A stretch of 32,603 nucleotides of DNA, from positions 1-32,603 of the forward strand of contig CAJCIN010000144.1 in assembly GCA_903970385.1 (NCBI GenBank), in the 5' to 3' direction. The notes beneath the pieces were generated by a model. It did no database searches. It saw nothing but the letters and a program-made list of their open reading frames with translations, and was not told the origin of the DNA. Made by a program: the position numbers and the translations under genes. Source of the stretch: Rhodospirillales bacterium (GTDB lineage: Bacteria; Vulcanimicrobiota; Vulcanimicrobiia; Vulcanimicrobiales; Vulcanimicrobiaceae). This document shows positions 1,410 to 9,361 of the stretch, piece after piece; within the stretch, counting starts at the first letter, position 1, and each line of letters starts with the position of its first letter.

Positions 1410-3630
1410 ATCCGTTCGAAGCGCGGCGCGGCGGCGCGACGACGGTGATGCGAACCGTCGAGCTGCCGTCGCGCGAGCGTGCCGCGATCGCGTGCGTTCC
1501 GGCGCGGAGCGGCACGAGATAATCGGCGTCGGTCCGCGGAAGCGGCGCGCCGTCCACGGTGACGTCGACGTCGCGCGTTCCGGCGAGTTCGAGCTTGAGC
1601 GTGCGTTCCGGATCGCGCACGAACGTATCGCCGTCTCGCGGAAAAAGGATGCGCGTCGGCATGCGCGCGCGCTCCGGCGACGCCGCGAGCCACGTGTCGT
1701 ACGTCGCGTCGTAGGCAGGCGGCGCGCGTCGTGACGCGAGCTCGGCGCGATCGCGCGCGTCGAGCAGTTCCATGACGACGGCCGGGCAGTGCGGCGCCGG
1801 TCGCGCTCCGGTCGTCGCGCAGATAGCGCGCGCCGCGTATCCGCGCGGCGGCTCGAAGCGCGGCGGATCTTCGCCCGCATGCAGGTGAGCGACGATGCGA
1901 TTCCAGAGCGGTGCCGCGCCGGTGACGCCGGAGACGCCGCGCATCGGCCGCCCGTCGAAATTTCCGACCCACACCGCGACGGTGTACGTTCGCGTGAAGC
2001 CGGCCGTCCAGGTGTCCCGGAAGTCGGACGACGTGCCGGTTTTCGCGGCCGCATCGAAGGGCAGCGACAGAATCGAATCGCGTCCGAACGCGGCGCTGCG
2101 CGCGACCGGGTCGGCGAGAACGTTCGTCACGAACGGCCACGCCGGATCGCCCGGCGCGGCACCGTCGTTCGTCACGAGCGGGGTGGCACCGGCGAACGTC
2201 ATGCGCAGCGCGGTCGGCGCGCCGCCGCGTGCGAGCGTGGCGTACGCGCGCGCGAGTTCGTAGAGCGAGACCTCGCCCGCGCCGAGCGTCAACCCGAGGC
2301 CGTAGTAATCGGGCGACTTCGTGAGATGCGTGAAGCCGAGCGCGTGGAGCCGATCGAGAAACGCCGGCACGCCGACGCGCTCGAGCACGCGCACGGCGGG
2401 AACGTTCAGCGAGTTCGCGAGCGCGACGCGCACGCGTACCGGGCCTTCGAAGCGGTCGGCGTAGTCGGTCGGCCGATACAGCCGCGCTCCCGGTAGCGCG
2501 TACGCGACCGGCACGTCGGCGAGGATCGTCGCCGGGCGCACGTCGCGGCGCTCGAGCGCGAGCTCGTAGAGAAACGGTTTGAGCGTCGAGCCCGGCTGAC
2601 GGAGCGCGCGGACGCCGTCGTTGCGACCGCCTCCCGCATCGTCGAAATAATCGCGCGAACCGACGTACGCGAGAACGTCGCCGCTCGCGTTGTCGACGAC
2701 GATCGCCGCCGCCTGGGAGGCGGCGTGGCCGGCGAGCGAGGCCACGACGTCGCGGACCTGCGCCTCGACGAATCGTTGTAGCGGCCGGTCGAGCGTCGTT
2801 CGGACGCGCTCGCGCTCGGGCGCGATGCTCGGCGCGAGCGAGAAGAGCGCCTGCGGCGCGGCCACGATCCCGGCCGCGCGCGGTGCGAACGCGAGTCGCT
2901 CCGCGGCGGCATCACGTGCCTCGGCGCGCGACAGGACGCCCGCGTCCACCATGCGCGCGAGGACGATGCGCTCGCGTGCGAGCGCGGCGGCGCGATGCTC
3001 GTACGGGTCGAGGCGCGTCGGGTCGCTCGGGAGACCCGCGAGCAGCGCGGCTTGCGCGAGATCGAGATGCTCGGCCGCGATTCCGAAGTACGTGCGCGCG
3101 GCCGCCTCGACGCCGTACACGTTCGAACCCATCGGTGCGCGGTTGACGTACGCTTCGAGGATCTGCGCTTTCGAGAGACCGTTCTCGAGGCGCACGGCGA
3201 CGATCGTCTCGGAAAGTTTTCCGCGTGCGTCCGCGGCGACCGGCACGAGCGCGCGGGCGAGTTGCATCGAGAGCGTCGACGCGCCGTGCGGCACGGTGCG
3301 AGCGCGGAGCGCCTCGCCGAACGAGCGCAGCGTCGCGAGCGGGTCGAGAGCGCCGTGGCGCGCGAAACGGCGATCCTCGGTCGCTTCGAGCGCCGCGAGA
3401 AAGACGGGTGCCACCCGCGCGAGCGGCACCGCGATCGTGTGGCGATCGTCGCGGCCGAGAATCGTTCCGAGAGCGAGACCGCTGCGGTCGACGAACGTCA
3501 GCGCGCGGGCGTCGCGCGGCAGGTCGCTCGCGCGCAGCGGTCGCGAGACGAACGCCGCGGCCGCGAGCACGACCGCGAGCGCGCACGTCACAAAGAGTCG
3601 TCTCGCGGCGCTCGAAAGGACGGGGTACAT
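1345..3630 (-). CDS. pbpC: Penicillin-binding protein 1C (class A, bifunctional)
   Basis: A 761-residue peptidoglycan synthase anchored by one N-terminal membrane helix (about 11-29). The glycosyltransferase domain shows EDRRFARHGALD (catalytic Glu85) and GASTLSMQLAR. The transpeptidase domain shows all three active-site motifs: Ser348 in PGSTLKPF (SxxK), SLN at 407-409, and KTGTS at 530-534. The C-terminus (about 658-731) fits the BiPBP_C domain that marks PBP1C; a basic tail of some 30 residues follows and overlaps the small acidic gene. It polymerises and cross-links glycan strands in the periplasm. ATG 3630 has a fine Shine-Dalgarno sequence, GAGGAA, 8 bases upstream. In E. coli pbpC is co-directional with the alpha-2-macroglobulin gene yfhM; here the partner is divergent, yet still adjacent, supporting a linked role in wall defence or repair. 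Confidence 0.93.
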   Translation of the reverse strand: MYPVLSSAARRLFVTCALAVVLAAAAFVSRPLRASDLPRDARALTFVDRSGLALGTILGRDDRHTIAVPLARVAPVFLAALEATEDRRFARHGALDPLATLRSFGEALRARTVPHGASTLSMQLARALVPVAADARGKLSETIVAVRLENGLSKAQILEAYVNRAPMGSNVYGVEAAARTYFGIAAEHLDLAQAALLAGLPSDPTRLDPYEHRAAALARERIVLARMVDAGVLSRAEARDAAAERLAFAPRAAGIVAAPQALFSLAPSIAPERERVRTTLDRPLQRFVEAQVRDVVASLAGHAASQAAAIVVDNASGDVLAYVGSRDYFDDAGGGRNDGVRALRQPGSTLKPFLYELALERRDVRPATILADVPVAYALPGARLYRPTDYADRFEGPVRVRVALANSLNVPAVRVLERVGVPAFLDRLHALGFTHLTKSPDYYGLGLTLGAGEVSLYELARAYATLARGGAPTALRMTFAGATPLVTNDGAAPGDPAWPFVTNVLADPVARSAAFGRDSILSLPFDAAAKTGTSSDFRDTWTAGFTRTYTVAVWVGNFDGRPMRGVSGVTGAAPLWNRIVAHLHAGEDPPRFEPPRGYAARAICATTGARPAPHCPAVVMELLDARDRAELASRRAPPAYDATYDTWLAASPERARMPTRILFPRDGDTFVRDPERTLKLELAGTRDVDVTVDGAPLPRTDADYLVPLRAGTHAIAARSRDGSSTVRITVVAPPRRASNGFTVVRADRSTETSPRASYRTR

Positions 3631-3644
3631 GCGATTGCTTCCTC
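3614..3644. promoter_or_regulatory. Shared start-codon site with two opposed Shine-Dalgarno sequences
   Basis: CATG at 3628-3631 provides ATG to both strands: pbpC starts at 3630 going left, the macroglobulin at 3629 going right. On the + strand GAAAGGA (3614-3620) lies 8 bases before its ATG. On the - strand GAGGAA (3644-3639) lies 8 bases before the other ATG. Each ribosome-binding site is therefore inside the first codons of the opposite gene, and both promoters must be too. No convincing -10/-35 boxes could be picked out by eye. Confidence 0.75.
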
Positions 3645-6600
3645 GCGTTTCGGTTCGTCGTGTCATCGCGTTTTGCGCGGTGACGTTCGCCGCGAGCGGC
3701 TGCGCGCCCCGGAGCGCGACGACGCAGCCGACGCCGTTACCGGCGGTGTCGCCGGCGCCGAAATCGGCGTTGCCCGCATGGATCGTCTCGCTCTCGCCGA
3801 CGGGCGAGGCAAAGGACGGCGCGCAGATCCGCGTGCGCTTCGCGAACGACGTCGTGCCGGTGGAAGCGCTCGAATCGCCCGACCGGTCGGCGGCACTGTC
3901 GCACGTCCTCGTCGAACCGGCGCTTCCCGGGCGTTTCATCTTCCTGACGCCGCGGATGATCGGGTTCGAATCCGATCGTCGCGTTCCGCACGGCACGCGC
4001 GTGCGCGTGACGCTGACCGCGGGCCTCGCGGATCTCGCCGGTCATCGCTTGACGCACGACCTCGCGTGGTCGTTCACGACGCAGCCGCTCGACTTTCCGG
4101 ACTTCGACGGCGGAGCCTCGCCCGCACCCGGCCCGTTCGTTCCGCGCATCGCGTTCGACGCGAGCGATGCCGTCGACGTGCCGTCGTTGCTCGCGCACGC
4201 GACGCTCACCGATACGAAAGACCGTTCCGTGATCGGGGTCGCGATCGCGCCGACGCCGTCGCCGGATCCGTCGGCGTCGCCGACGCCGGCGAGCGACGCG
4301 AACGGTTCGGACAGCGGGCCGACCACCGTGCGCTACGAGGTCGTGCCGAAGCACCCGCTCGCGTACGATCGCACGTACACGTTTTCGATCGGCGCGGGCG
4401 TGCTCTCGCAAGGCGGCAATCTCCCGACGCAGGGCGAGTACGATCGTTTCGTGCGCAGCTACGGTCCGTTCGTCTATCGCGGGCCGCAAACGCGCGCGAC
4501 GACGCCCGAACGGTTCGTCGAGAGCGTTCCGACGCTCGAGTTTTCGAACCCGCTCGATCCGGCGAGCCTCGCCGCCGCCGTGACGATCTCGCCGCCGGCG
4601 GCGCGCGGCGATCTCGCGAGCGTCGACGACGACGGCGCGATCGCGCTCGATCCGGATCTGCTCGAACCGGACACGACGTACGTCGTGCGCATCGCTCGTT
4701 CGCTGCGCGACCGGTTCGGCCAGACGCTCGGAATGGCCGTGTCCGAGACGTTCCGGACGACGTCGCTGCAGCCGAATCTCGGCGCGCCGAGCGGCGCGCA
4801 CATCTTTCCGGCCGGACTCGACCTCGCGCTGAACGTGGGCTCCGTGAATCTTCCGGAGCGCGCGTTTCGCGCGGCGTACGTCCGCGTGCGTCCGGAAGAC
4901 CTCGTCGCTCACGACGTCGCGCAGAGCGACGGCGTCGCGGCGCTGCTGCCGGCCGCGACGGACTGGCACGCGCACCCGCTCGCGCAAGTGCGCAACGTCC
5001 AACTCGACACGGCGCTACCGCTGCGGTCGCTCGCGGGCGGAACGCACGGTATGGTCGCGTACGGCGTTCGCGCGAAGACGGTCCGGACGACCGACGCGAA
5101 CGGCAAACAGGGTTGGGTCGAGCCCGAATACGACGGTGCCGTACAATTGACGGACCTCGGCGTGTGGACGCAGTGGTTTCCGGGTGCCGGCGAGGTACGC
5201 GTGCGGCGCCTGAGCGACGGAACCGCCGTCGCGGGCGCGGCGGTCGCCGTCTACGAGTCGTTCACCGAATACGGCGTGAGCGCTCCGTCGACGCCGGCGC
5301 AGCCCTGCGCGTCGGGAACGACCGGCGCCGACGGACGTTGGTCGCTTCCGCTCGCCGCCTGGGCCGCGTGCGCGAGTACGGCGAAGAACGCGACCGCCGC
5401 GCCGGCGCTCTTGACCGTCGTGCGCAGCGGCGACGACTGGGCGTACGCGCGCAGCACCTCGTACGAGAACGGCTACGGAGCGGGGCTGAGCGGCGAAGGC
5501 TGGTCCGCCGGCACGCCGAACGCTCGCGGCTCGCTCGTTTCCGACCGGACGCTGTATCAGCCGGGCGAGACCGCGAAGTTCGTCGGCGTCTCGTATTTCG
5601 AGCGCGACGGCACGATCGCGCGCGGGCGCTCGACGTCGTTCGCACTCGTCGCGACCTCGCCGAGCGGAGCGACGCGAAATCTCGGCTCCGCGACGCCCGA
5701 TGCGTTCGGAACGTTCTCCGTGTCGTTCGCGCTGCCGGCATCGGCGCCCGTCGGCGCGTGGCAGATCGCGGCGACCGGCACCGACGGCGAGACGCTCGCG
5801 GGAGCGTTCACCGTGGCGGAGTTCAAGCCGCCGAACTTCAAGGTCGATCTGACGCTCGACGAGGGTCCGGTCGTCGCCGGCGCGACGGTCGGCGCCCGCG
5901 CGCGGAGCAGCTATCTCTTCGGCGCGGCGGTCGGCGCCGGCACCGCCCGCGTCTCGGTGACGCGAGCGCGCACGACGTTCTCGCCGGCGGGGTACGACGA
6001 ATTCTCGTTCGGACGGCAGTGGTCGTATCCCGAAGAAGAACCGTCCGTCACGAGCGACGTGTTGCAACGCGCCTTCCCGCTCGATGCCACGGGCGAGACG
6101 GCGTTTGCGGTTCCGGTCGGCAACGATCTGCCGTTTCCGATGGCCTATACGGTGACGAGCGAGACGACGGACGCCTCGAATCTCGCCGTCGCGGACACGA
6201 AATCGTTCGTCGCTTTACCATCGAAGGACGAGATCGGTCTCGCGACGCCGTTCGTCGGCGAAGCGGGTCGCGCGTTCTCCGTCCGCACCGTCGTCGTCGA
6301 TCCGTCCGGCAAGCCGCGCGACGGGGTCGCGCTCCGGCTCGTGCTGCAGCAACGCGTCGATGCGAGCGCGCCGCAGATCGTCGAAGGCAGCGAGACCTCG
6401 CACGACGCGGTGCGCTACGTCGACGTCGCGACGTCCACGGTGACCTCCGGCGCGCAGCCCGTCGACGTGCCGTTCACGGCGCCGAAGGCGGGCGAGTATC
6501 GCGTCCGCGCGAACGTCGCGGGCGCGCAGGGCGACCTGACGGCGACGGACGCCCCGCTGTGGATCACGGGTGCGGGCGGCGCGGCGTGGTTCGGTGCCGA

Positions 6601-9361
6601 CTCGGACGCACTCGTCGTCAAGCTCGACAAGACGACGTACCGGCCGGGCGACGTCGCCCGCGTGCTCGTGCAATCGCCGTATGCCGACGCGGAGATGTCG
6701 CTCGCCGTGGTGCGCCACGGCGCGTTCTTGCGAAGGACGACGCTCGTGCACGGCGCCGCGCCGGAAGCGACGTTCGTGGTGACGCCCGACATGCTGCCGA
6801 ACGCCGCGGTGCAGGTCGTCCTCGTGCGTCGCGGCGCTCCGCTCGCGCACGGCGTTCCCGCGGGCGTCACCAAACTCGCGCGCACGGGCTTCGCGCCTTT
6901 CGACGTCGCGCTCGATGCGAAGTATCTGCACGTCGATCTGCATCCGCACGCCGCGTCGGTCGCGCCCGGCGGTCGCGAGCGCATCGACGTGCGCGTCACG
7001 GCGAGCGACGGCGCGCCGGTCCGCGGCGAGCTCGCCGTCGCGGTCGTCAACGACGCGATCTTGCAGCTCAGCGGGTATCGTTTCCCGGATCTCGTGAAGA
7101 GCGTGTACGCGACGGAACCGATCTCGACGCGGCTCGCGGACAATTACGGCGACGTCGAACTCCGCACCGAACGCGCGTCGCTCGACAAGGGCTTCGGGTA
7201 CGGCGGCGGCGTCATGGCGGGGCCGGCCGGCACGCGCGTGCGCACGAAATTCCTGCCGCTCGCGTATTGGAATGCCGCGGTGCGGACCGATGCGACGGGT
7301 CGTGCGACGATCGACGTTCCGTTGCCGGACGACCTCACGACGTGGCGCGTGATGGCGCTCGCGCTCACGCGCGACGCGCGCTTCGGAAACGGCGAGACGA
7401 CGTTCGTCGCGACGAAGCCGCTCGTCACGGATCCGATCTTGCCGCAATTCGCGCGACCGGGCGACCGTTTCGCCGCCGGCGTGTCGGTCACGAACGTGGC
7501 GCGCGCGAGCGGGGCGACCGACGTCCGCGCGGCGCTTTCCGGCGGCGCGGCGTTCGCGACCGGAGCGCCGGCGACGGCGCAGACGTCGGCGCCCGCCGCG
7601 GATGCGGGCGCGGCGCTCTCGCGCGTCTATCGCTTCGACGTCGTGGCGCACGCCGCGCGCGACGCGGCGTTCACGTTCCGGTCGTCGCTCGGGCCGAACG
7701 CCGATGCGTTCACGTTCGGCGTTCCGATCGTTGCCGACGACGTGCTCGAAAGCGCGATCACGACGGGGACGACGGAGGATGCCGCGCGCGTTCCGCTCGA
7801 CGTCGCGCCCGCGCTGCGCGGTCCGCTCGGCGGCCTCGAGGTCACGCTCGCGAGCACGCTCCTCGCCGAAGCGCTCGAGCCGACGCGCGCGCTCGACGGC
7901 ACCCCGTTCGGCTTTGCGACCGAACTCGGCAGCCGCATCGCGATCGCCTCCGATGCGATCGTCCTCGACCGCCGCTATGGCCGGCCCGCGGCGATCCCCC
8001 CGCTGCGCGAGACGGCCGGGCGCGACCTCGCGTCGCTGCGCCGCCTCGCCTTACCGGACGGCGGTTTCGCGCCGTGGCCCGGTGCCAAGCAGAGCGAGAT
8101 CTTCTCGACGGCGTTCGTCGCGGTGCAATTGCTGCAGGCGAGGGATGCGGGATTCGCGGTCGACGGCGATCTCTCGCACGCGCTCGCGTACGTCCGGAAG
8201 GTGCTCGCGGATCCGTACGGTCTCGAAGACATTTCGAAGACGGACGACCTCACCGCGGCCGAAGTCCGCCTCGAGGCGCTCGAGACGCTCGGTTCCGCCG
8301 GCGACGCGCGCACCGACTTCTTGACGAGCGTCTGGGCGCAGCAGACGCACTTCGAGTTTTACGAACGCGTCGAGCTCGCGCGCTTCCTGTTGCGGCTGCC
8401 CGCGTGGCACGCGCGCGGGATCGCGCTGCGCGACGAACTGTTGCAGCAGGTCAACCTCGGCGCGCGTCACGCGACGGTCGACGTGCGTGGCGAATTCGGC
8501 GAGAGCGAGCCCGCGGGACAGGCGCAGATGCTGCAGCTCGCCATCGCCGGCGGAACGCCGAAAGAGGACGTCGATCGGCTCCTCGAGTCGCTGCTCGCGC
8601 TGCGGCACGACGGTCGTTGGGGTTGTGCGTGCGACGACGCGGAAGCGATGAACGGGCTCGTGCTGTATGCGGCGCAAGACACGTTGCCGCCGGACTTCAC
8701 GGCCGTCGCGACGCTCCCCGCGCGCGCGCCGCGCACGGAACGTCGTACGTTCGCGGGCTACGCGACGACGAGCGTAACCGACACCGTGCCGATCGACGAC
8801 CTCGCGCGCGGTCGCGGCGACGTCGACCTGCAGAAGACGGGTCGCGGGACGCTGCACTACGCCGTCGCGCTGCGTTATCGCGTGCCGGACGAGTCGCCGG
8901 GCATCTACGCGGGTCTGCGGATCGACCGCGTCGTGCGCACGCCGGGCGATTCCGCGATCGCGGCGACGTTCGGTCTCGCGCTGCCGACCGCGCCGACGAG
9001 CGTCCCCGGCGCGCACGTGTACGATGTCGAGGACCGCATCGTCACGGATCATCCCGTCGAGAACGTCCTCGTGACGGATCCGCTACCGGCCGGCTTCGAA
9101 GCCGTCGACCAGACGTTCCGGACGTCCGCACCCGGGATCGGCGAATCGAACGACACGCTCGCGCTCGATTATCAATCGATCTACCGCACGCGCGTCGTCT
9201 CGTTCGTGCACCATCTCGATCCGGGCGCGTACGCGATCCACTACCTCGTGCGATCGGTGACGCCCGGAACGTTCGCGTGGCCCGGCGCCGTCGTGCAACT
9301 GCAGTACGAACCCGAACAATTCGGGCGCACCGCCGCGACGCAACTGGTCGTTACACCGTAG
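3629..9361 (+). CDS. Bacterial alpha-2-macroglobulin lipoprotein, thioester-less
   Basis: A giant 1910-residue protein. The signal peptide ends in the lipobox AASGC (Cys25), so it should be a lipoprotein facing the periplasm. An N-terminal Ig-like/MG domain (SLSPTGEAKDGAQIRVRF onward) is followed by further MG domains and a macroglobulin core (LAYWNAAVRTDATGRATI, LPDDLTTWRVMALAL), then an alpha-helical TED-like domain. Bacterial macroglobulins trap proteases that enter the periplasm; in the classic type a CxEQ motif forms a thioester that binds the prey. Here the equivalent site reads TPFGFATELGSR (Phe1429-Ala-Thr-Glu1432) where the family has YPYGCxEQxxSR, so no thioester can form. That places it with thioester-less types such as YfaS or Pseudomonas MagD. 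It starts on the CATG shared with pbpC. Its last 11 bases overlap the end of the convergent CoA ligase gene. Confidence 0.92.
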   Translation: MRLLPRVSVRRVIAFCAVTFAASGCAPRSATTQPTPLPAVSPAPKSALPAWIVSLSPTGEAKDGAQIRVRFANDVVPVEALESPDRSAALSHVLVEPALPGRFIFLTPRMIGFESDRRVPHGTRVRVTLTAGLADLAGHRLTHDLAWSFTTQPLDFPDFDGGASPAPGPFVPRIAFDASDAVDVPSLLAHATLTDTKDRSVIGVAIAPTPSPDPSASPTPASDANGSDSGPTTVRYEVVPKHPLAYDRTYTFSIGAGVLSQGGNLPTQGEYDRFVRSYGPFVYRGPQTRATTPERFVESVPTLEFSNPLDPASLAAAVTISPPAARGDLASVDDDGAIALDPDLLEPDTTYVVRIARSLRDRFGQTLGMAVSETFRTTSLQPNLGAPSGAHIFPAGLDLALNVGSVNLPERAFRAAYVRVRPEDLVAHDVAQSDGVAALLPAATDWHAHPLAQVRNVQLDTALPLRSLAGGTHGMVAYGVRAKTVRTTDANGKQGWVEPEYDGAVQLTDLGVWTQWFPGAGEVRVRRLSDGTAVAGAAVAVYESFTEYGVSAPSTPAQPCASGTTGADGRWSLPLAAWAACASTAKNATAAPALLTVVRSGDDWAYARSTSYENGYGAGLSGEGWSAGTPNARGSLVSDRTLYQPGETAKFVGVSYFERDGTIARGRSTSFALVATSPSGATRNLGSATPDAFGTFSVSFALPASAPVGAWQIAATGTDGETLAGAFTVAEFKPPNFKVDLTLDEGPVVAGATVGARARSSYLFGAAVGAGTARVSVTRARTTFSPAGYDEFSFGRQWSYPEEEPSVTSDVLQRAFPLDATGETAFAVPVGNDLPFPMAYTVTSETTDASNLAVADTKSFVALPSKDEIGLATPFVGEAGRAFSVRTVVVDPSGKPRDGVALRLVLQQRVDASAPQIVEGSETSHDAVRYVDVATSTVTSGAQPVDVPFTAPKAGEYRVRANVAGAQGDLTATDAPLWITGAGGAAWFGADSDALVVKLDKTTYRPGDVARVLVQSPYADAEMSLAVVRHGAFLRRTTLVHGAAPEATFVVTPDMLPNAAVQVVLVRRGAPLAHGVPAGVTKLARTGFAPFDVALDAKYLHVDLHPHAASVAPGGRERIDVRVTASDGAPVRGELAVAVVNDAILQLSGYRFPDLVKSVYATEPISTRLADNYGDVELRTERASLDKGFGYGGGVMAGPAGTRVRTKFLPLAYWNAAVRTDATGRATIDVPLPDDLTTWRVMALALTRDARFGNGETTFVATKPLVTDPILPQFARPGDRFAAGVSVTNVARASGATDVRAALSGGAAFATGAPATAQTSAPAADAGAALSRVYRFDVVAHAARDAAFTFRSSLGPNADAFTFGVPIVADDVLESAITTGTTEDAARVPLDVAPALRGPLGGLEVTLASTLLAEALEPTRALDGTPFGFATELGSRIAIASDAIVLDRRYGRPAAIPPLRETAGRDLASLRRLALPDGGFAPWPGAKQSEIFSTAFVAVQLLQARDAGFAVDGDLSHALAYVRKVLADPYGLEDISKTDDLTAAEVRLEALETLGSAGDARTDFLTSVWAQQTHFEFYERVELARFLLRLPAWHARGIALRDELLQQVNLGARHATVDVRGEFGESEPAGQAQMLQLAIAGGTPKEDVDRLLESLLALRHDGRWGCACDDAEAMNGLVLYAAQDTLPPDFTAVATLPARAPRTERRTFAGYATTSVTDTVPIDDLARGRGDVDLQKTGRGTLHYAVALRYRVPDESPGIYAGLRIDRVVRTPGDSAIAATFGLALPTAPTSVPGAHVYDVEDRIVTDHPVENVLVTDPLPAGFEAVDQTFRTSAPGIGESNDTLALDYQSIYRTRVVSFVHHLDPGAYAIHYLVRSVTPGTFAWPGAVVQLQYEPEQFGRTAATQLVVTP

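Follow-up and report, generated by a model that had tools for sequence, protein, structure and literature searches.

Short head-to-head overlaps between divergent genes are a recognised, rare class, accounting for 457 of the 42,055 overlaps counted between well-characterised genes, and the divergent overlaps longer than 60 bp were all judged to be misannotations (PMC2478687), which is a warning about start calls. Our literature search for divergent genes whose start codons overlap or coincide found nothing usable. Bidirectional promoters with a symmetric -10 element, as in Escherichia coli acrA/acrR and others, likewise serve divergent, functionally linked genes. They are recognised by a TANNNTA near both starts and by a distance of about 10-23 bp between the two transcription start sites, and polymerase competition is documented at them (PMC12825309). 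In the yfhM-pbpC operon a type I alpha-2-macroglobulin (A2M) gene adjoins the gene of penicillin-binding protein 1C (PBP1C) in the same direction, and the two proteins are viewed as cooperating in periplasmic defence (PMC5764988), which would favour co-expression.

The same two partners adjoin each other in the window analysed here, the whole 32,603 nt of one contig from an uncultured Eremiobacterota bacterium, but they are divergent and the A2M has no CxEQ thioester. Like the short prokaryotic overlaps, they lie on opposite strands and, with the favoured starts, would share a few bases at the beginning of their coding regions. The window differs from them in that both start codons fall in one CATG with a Shine-Dalgarno (SD) sequence on each side. 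The most likely reading of our analysis is that a gene pair arranged head to head across the class has here been compressed to the limit, and not that the arrangement is a conserved regulatory device.

The two genes and their shared CATG

Both genes belong to recognised families on opposite strands, as in a divergent overlapping pair. The pbpC gene (3630-1345, minus strand) encodes 761 aa with transglycosylase, transpeptidase and C-terminal domains; its product reaches 525.9 bits with the TIGR02073 equivalog, above the cutoff of 494.2 that marks PBP1C membership, and matches Pfam Transgly and Transpeptidase. The A2M gene (3629-9361, plus strand) encodes a protease-trap lipoprotein of 1910 aa with Pfam MG2, A2M_BRD, A2M and bMG10. 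Its thioester site reads GFATEL (residues about 1424-1433), so that it falls outside the type I bacterial A2Ms as defined by CxEQ. The motif is also missing from six other Eremiobacteria A2M copies compared, while outgroup A2Ms adjoining pbpC keep it. At its other end the A2M gene overlaps an AMP-binding (acetyl-CoA synthetase-like) gene tail to tail by 11 nt (9351-9361).

Read directly, the palindrome CATG at 3628-3631 supplies ATG 3629-3631 on the plus strand to A2M and ATG 3630-3628 on the minus strand to pbpC; if pbpC starts at ATG 3630, the two genes have 2 bp of coding sequence in common (3629-3630). The SD of A2M is AAAGGA (3615-3620, plus strand; 8 nt from ATG 3629; duplex -8.6 kcal/mol) and that of pbpC is GAGGAA (3644-3639, minus strand; 8 nt from ATG 3630; duplex -5.9 kcal/mol). 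A preliminary description of this DNA had reported two divergent genes on one CATG, each with a strong SD at 8-base spacing inside the other gene, and our data confirm it with the start of PbpC graded below. As background we took 189 kb of this genome, made up of some contigs and the window; there, anti-SD energies at or below -8.6 occur at 1.0% and at or below -5.9 at 6.8% of the ATGs not called as starts.

The A2M start at ATG 3629 is a firm prediction. The N-terminus reads MRLLPRVSVRRVIAFCAVTFAASGC with the lipobox Cys at residue 25, the start codon and the next CG are aligned in all six clade members compared ([AT]TGCG), followed by the lipobox, and the start aligns with M/L-R in five clade relatives. 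The gene caller had instead put the A2M start at GTG 3680, which we rejected as the lipobox Cys would then be preceded by just 7 residues; the start was misplaced because signal-peptide codons score poorly. In consequence the caller set the pbpC and A2M starts 49 nt apart. All the other divergent pairs among the 24 called in the 189-kb sample, pbpC/A2M included in that number, have starts at least 39 nt apart.

A CATG flanked by two SDs is by itself within reach of chance. The pattern AGGA-N5-9-CATG-N5-9-TCCT has five copies in the 3.26-Mb genome against one for the reversed control, and in the stretches read, three of them near contig ends, none of the other four copies lies between two divergent genes. 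The special feature of the window copy is that two real genes flank it. The palindrome also calls for caution, as it offers a possible false second start wherever a C precedes an ATG. Since the genome is a 312-contig metagenome-assembled genome, an artefact of binning or assembly could be considered, but the 32.6-kb contig extends beyond the locus on both sides and 51 other genomes show the pair in this divergent layout, and we regard such an explanation as highly improbable.

The start of PbpC

The overlap of the coding regions rests on the firm A2M start and on ATG 3630 of pbpC, which we favour over a GTG at 3591-3589 (minus strand; Val14). The stretch ahead of Val14, PbpC residues 2-13, reads YPVLSSAARRLF. 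In many other genera a [KR]-x-F-[VA] motif lies inside the protein before the membrane segment (MKLFAL, MKHFVL, MKRFVA, VKLFVR), and the window PbpC has it in the form RRLF. ATG 3630 is favoured because this positively charged motif precedes the membrane segment in so many genera, and on these alignments PbpC quite probably starts there.

If pbpC instead started at GTG 3591, the genes would not overlap, a 37-nt spacer would separate them, and the minus-strand ATG of the CATG would be an unused by-product of the A2M start. The codon is kept as GTG in five of six clade members, its SD reaches -7.1 in L031 and -5.9 in L002, and the implied spacers of 37-52 nt match the usual range of the family; the conserved DNA described below would then be spacer DNA. 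However, this start would strip all positive charge ahead of the membrane segment, leaving no K/R there, unlike the PbpC of other genera, and it would place outside the protein a motif that is internal elsewhere. In the window the SD of GTG 3591 is also weak (-3.0 against -5.9 for ATG 3630), and an independent gene call picked 3630. We therefore consider the GTG start unlikely, even though the homologous upstream ATG/GTG of PbpC has no good SD in L031, L002, L003 and L004. In L146 (G015) the part of the open frame ahead of the PbpC membrane segment contains a CTG but none of ATG, GTG and TTG, which may reflect an unusual start or an assembly error.

Orientation and spacing in relatives

The head-to-head layout is probably a derived state of the class Eremiobacteria, as its distribution indicates. 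Among relatives drawn from Candidatus Eremiobacterota, 52 Eremiobacteria genomes (the window genome and 51 others) have pbpC and A2M in divergent orientation and one has them convergent, counting distinct genomes; a further few had no A2M on the contig piece read. None of the 52 has the codirectional neighbours of an A2M-pbpC operon. Outside Eremiobacteria the two genes are codirectional in all 44 loci with an A2M near pbpC, which bears out the codirectional layout given in the preliminary description, and they are codirectional in the same-phylum outgroups G057 and G058 as well. The convergent case (L143, G051, family f3) is a second rearrangement, with the genes tail to tail and a 24-nt gap between the matched parts. 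PbpCs of Leptolyngbya-like cyanobacteria (L033, L035-L045, L050, L053) are about 49-59% identical to the window PbpC, nearer than those of most other phyla, and no A2M was detected close to them; gene transfer is a possible reading of this similarity.

In one clade the two starts have come together. The PbpC tree places the window genome with six others in a clade of seven genera (L001, L031, L002-L005 and L018) with support 100/98, and L006 (gap 68) stands next outside. In this clade the best start assignments are about -23 to +1 nt apart, for the members with both gene starts on the contig, and elsewhere the spacing spreads widely; the start calls across the family are automatic and some are doubtful, and for L031 we took ATG 5028 and ATG 5050 instead. 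Only the window genome was found to combine a CATG shared in exactly this way with a good SD for each gene. The nearest relative, L031 (PbpC 70-71% identical), has no shared CATG, and the in-frame shared CATGs of L003, L024 and L114 are without a good SD for one or both genes. Because its double-SD form is confined to the window genome and the nearest relative has none, we think that the CATG probably arose incidentally as the spacer was lost, and the explanation does not require the CATG to have a dedicated function of its own.

Candidate control DNA and promoters

The first codons of pbpC may carry control DNA for the A2M gene. A conserved element, TCACAAAGANTCG-N8-CGCTCGAA (3588-3616, plus strand), lies within these codons upstream of A2M and is a candidate A2M promoter or operator. 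Its form CGTCACAAAGANTCG-N8-CGCTCGAA is common to four genera as a perfect match with identical wobble positions. In pbpC codons 6-15, a region chosen after looking, each of the six residues that four genomes have in common is also written with one and the same codon in all four, against 84 of 321 columns of this kind (26%) in the rest of pbpC, and low synonymous change is common near gene starts; the codon of the identical N-terminal residue P3 is not conserved. The wobble conservation is therefore only suggestive of an embedded A2M control site. With up to 3 mismatches allowed, the element occurs once in its own genome, and we rejected a regulon on that account. That the element in the first 15 pbpC codons controls the divergent A2M gene, or both genes, is a tentative proposal, which we think could be right but would not expect to be.

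The promoter scan found no sigma-70-like promoter on either strand in the window, and neither a TANNNT hexamer on either strand nor the TANNNTA of the symmetric -10 class was found there within 80 nt. A sigma-28-like reading of CAAA-N15-GCTCGAA was too weak to claim. Both promoters had been placed inside the opposite genes. The DNA upstream of A2M does lie within pbpC codons; the other half holds only if PbpC starts at ATG 3630, and the scan gave neither promoter a sigma-70-like motif. Several other Eremiobacteria lineages have a symmetric TANNNTA -10-like heptamer between pbpC and A2M (in A2M orientation, L019 3206-3212, L124 1234-1240, L027 3729-3735, L119 1235-1241 and L022 2841-2847). In L019 and L124 it lies 5-6 nt before the A2M start ATG, a position that suggests bidirectional, nearly leaderless promoters when the geometry is compared with that of PMC12825309.

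The preliminary description had further proposed that the arrangement could balance wall synthesis against protease defence. In such an evolved switch the overlapping 5' ends would pair as antisense RNAs, or the promoters would exclude each other. For each mRNA to carry its own SD, the two transcripts have to overlap at the 5' end, the embedded conserved element exists, and polymerases do compete at bidirectional promoters (PMC12825309). But the nearest relative has not retained the shared CATG and others have it without both SDs, the spacing varies widely across the family, and the element is essentially single-copy. The RNA folds of both 5' regions are no better than shuffles, and the cooperation proposed for PbpC and A2M (PMC5764988) predicts co-expression and not a trade-off. 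Geometry alone makes it likely that the two promoters compete, but the evidence does not support a function dedicated to balancing, and we hold an evolved switch to be improbable.

Origin of the arrangement

We lean, with some confidence, towards a genuine divergent pair that has lost its spacer completely. As the distribution suggests, the usual A2M->pbpC operon would have been rearranged head to head in an ancestor of the Eremiobacteria, and in the seven-genus clade the spacer would then have shrunk until the start regions abutted or overlapped. In the window genome the palindrome CATG would happen to serve both start codons, each mRNA retaining its own SD within the first codons of the other gene. 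The A2M control DNA may sit within pbpC codons, at the candidate element, and the pbpC promoter within the A2M signal-peptide codons, so that polymerases heading either way would contend for one stretch of roughly 100 bp, as happens where divergent promoters are known to overlap or to be bidirectional. The data show the two genes, their SDs, their orientation in relatives and the pattern of conservation; we infer the use of these starts in vivo, the promoter positions and the polymerase competition. Three points weigh against spacer loss: the upstream PbpC starts of most relatives have no SD, the conserved GTG at V14 would give a family-like spacer, and no promoter motif was recognised in the window.

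If the proposed role of the element is true, a single 100-bp stretch would, throughout one clade of Eremiobacterota, encode the N-termini of both proteins and also contain both ribosome sites and a promoter or operator common to the two genes. The locus documents a class-wide rearrangement of the widespread A2M/PBP1C pair from operon to head-to-head layout, in which one clade has no spacer left, and its natural series of spacings is material for testing how overlapping divergent promoters coexist.
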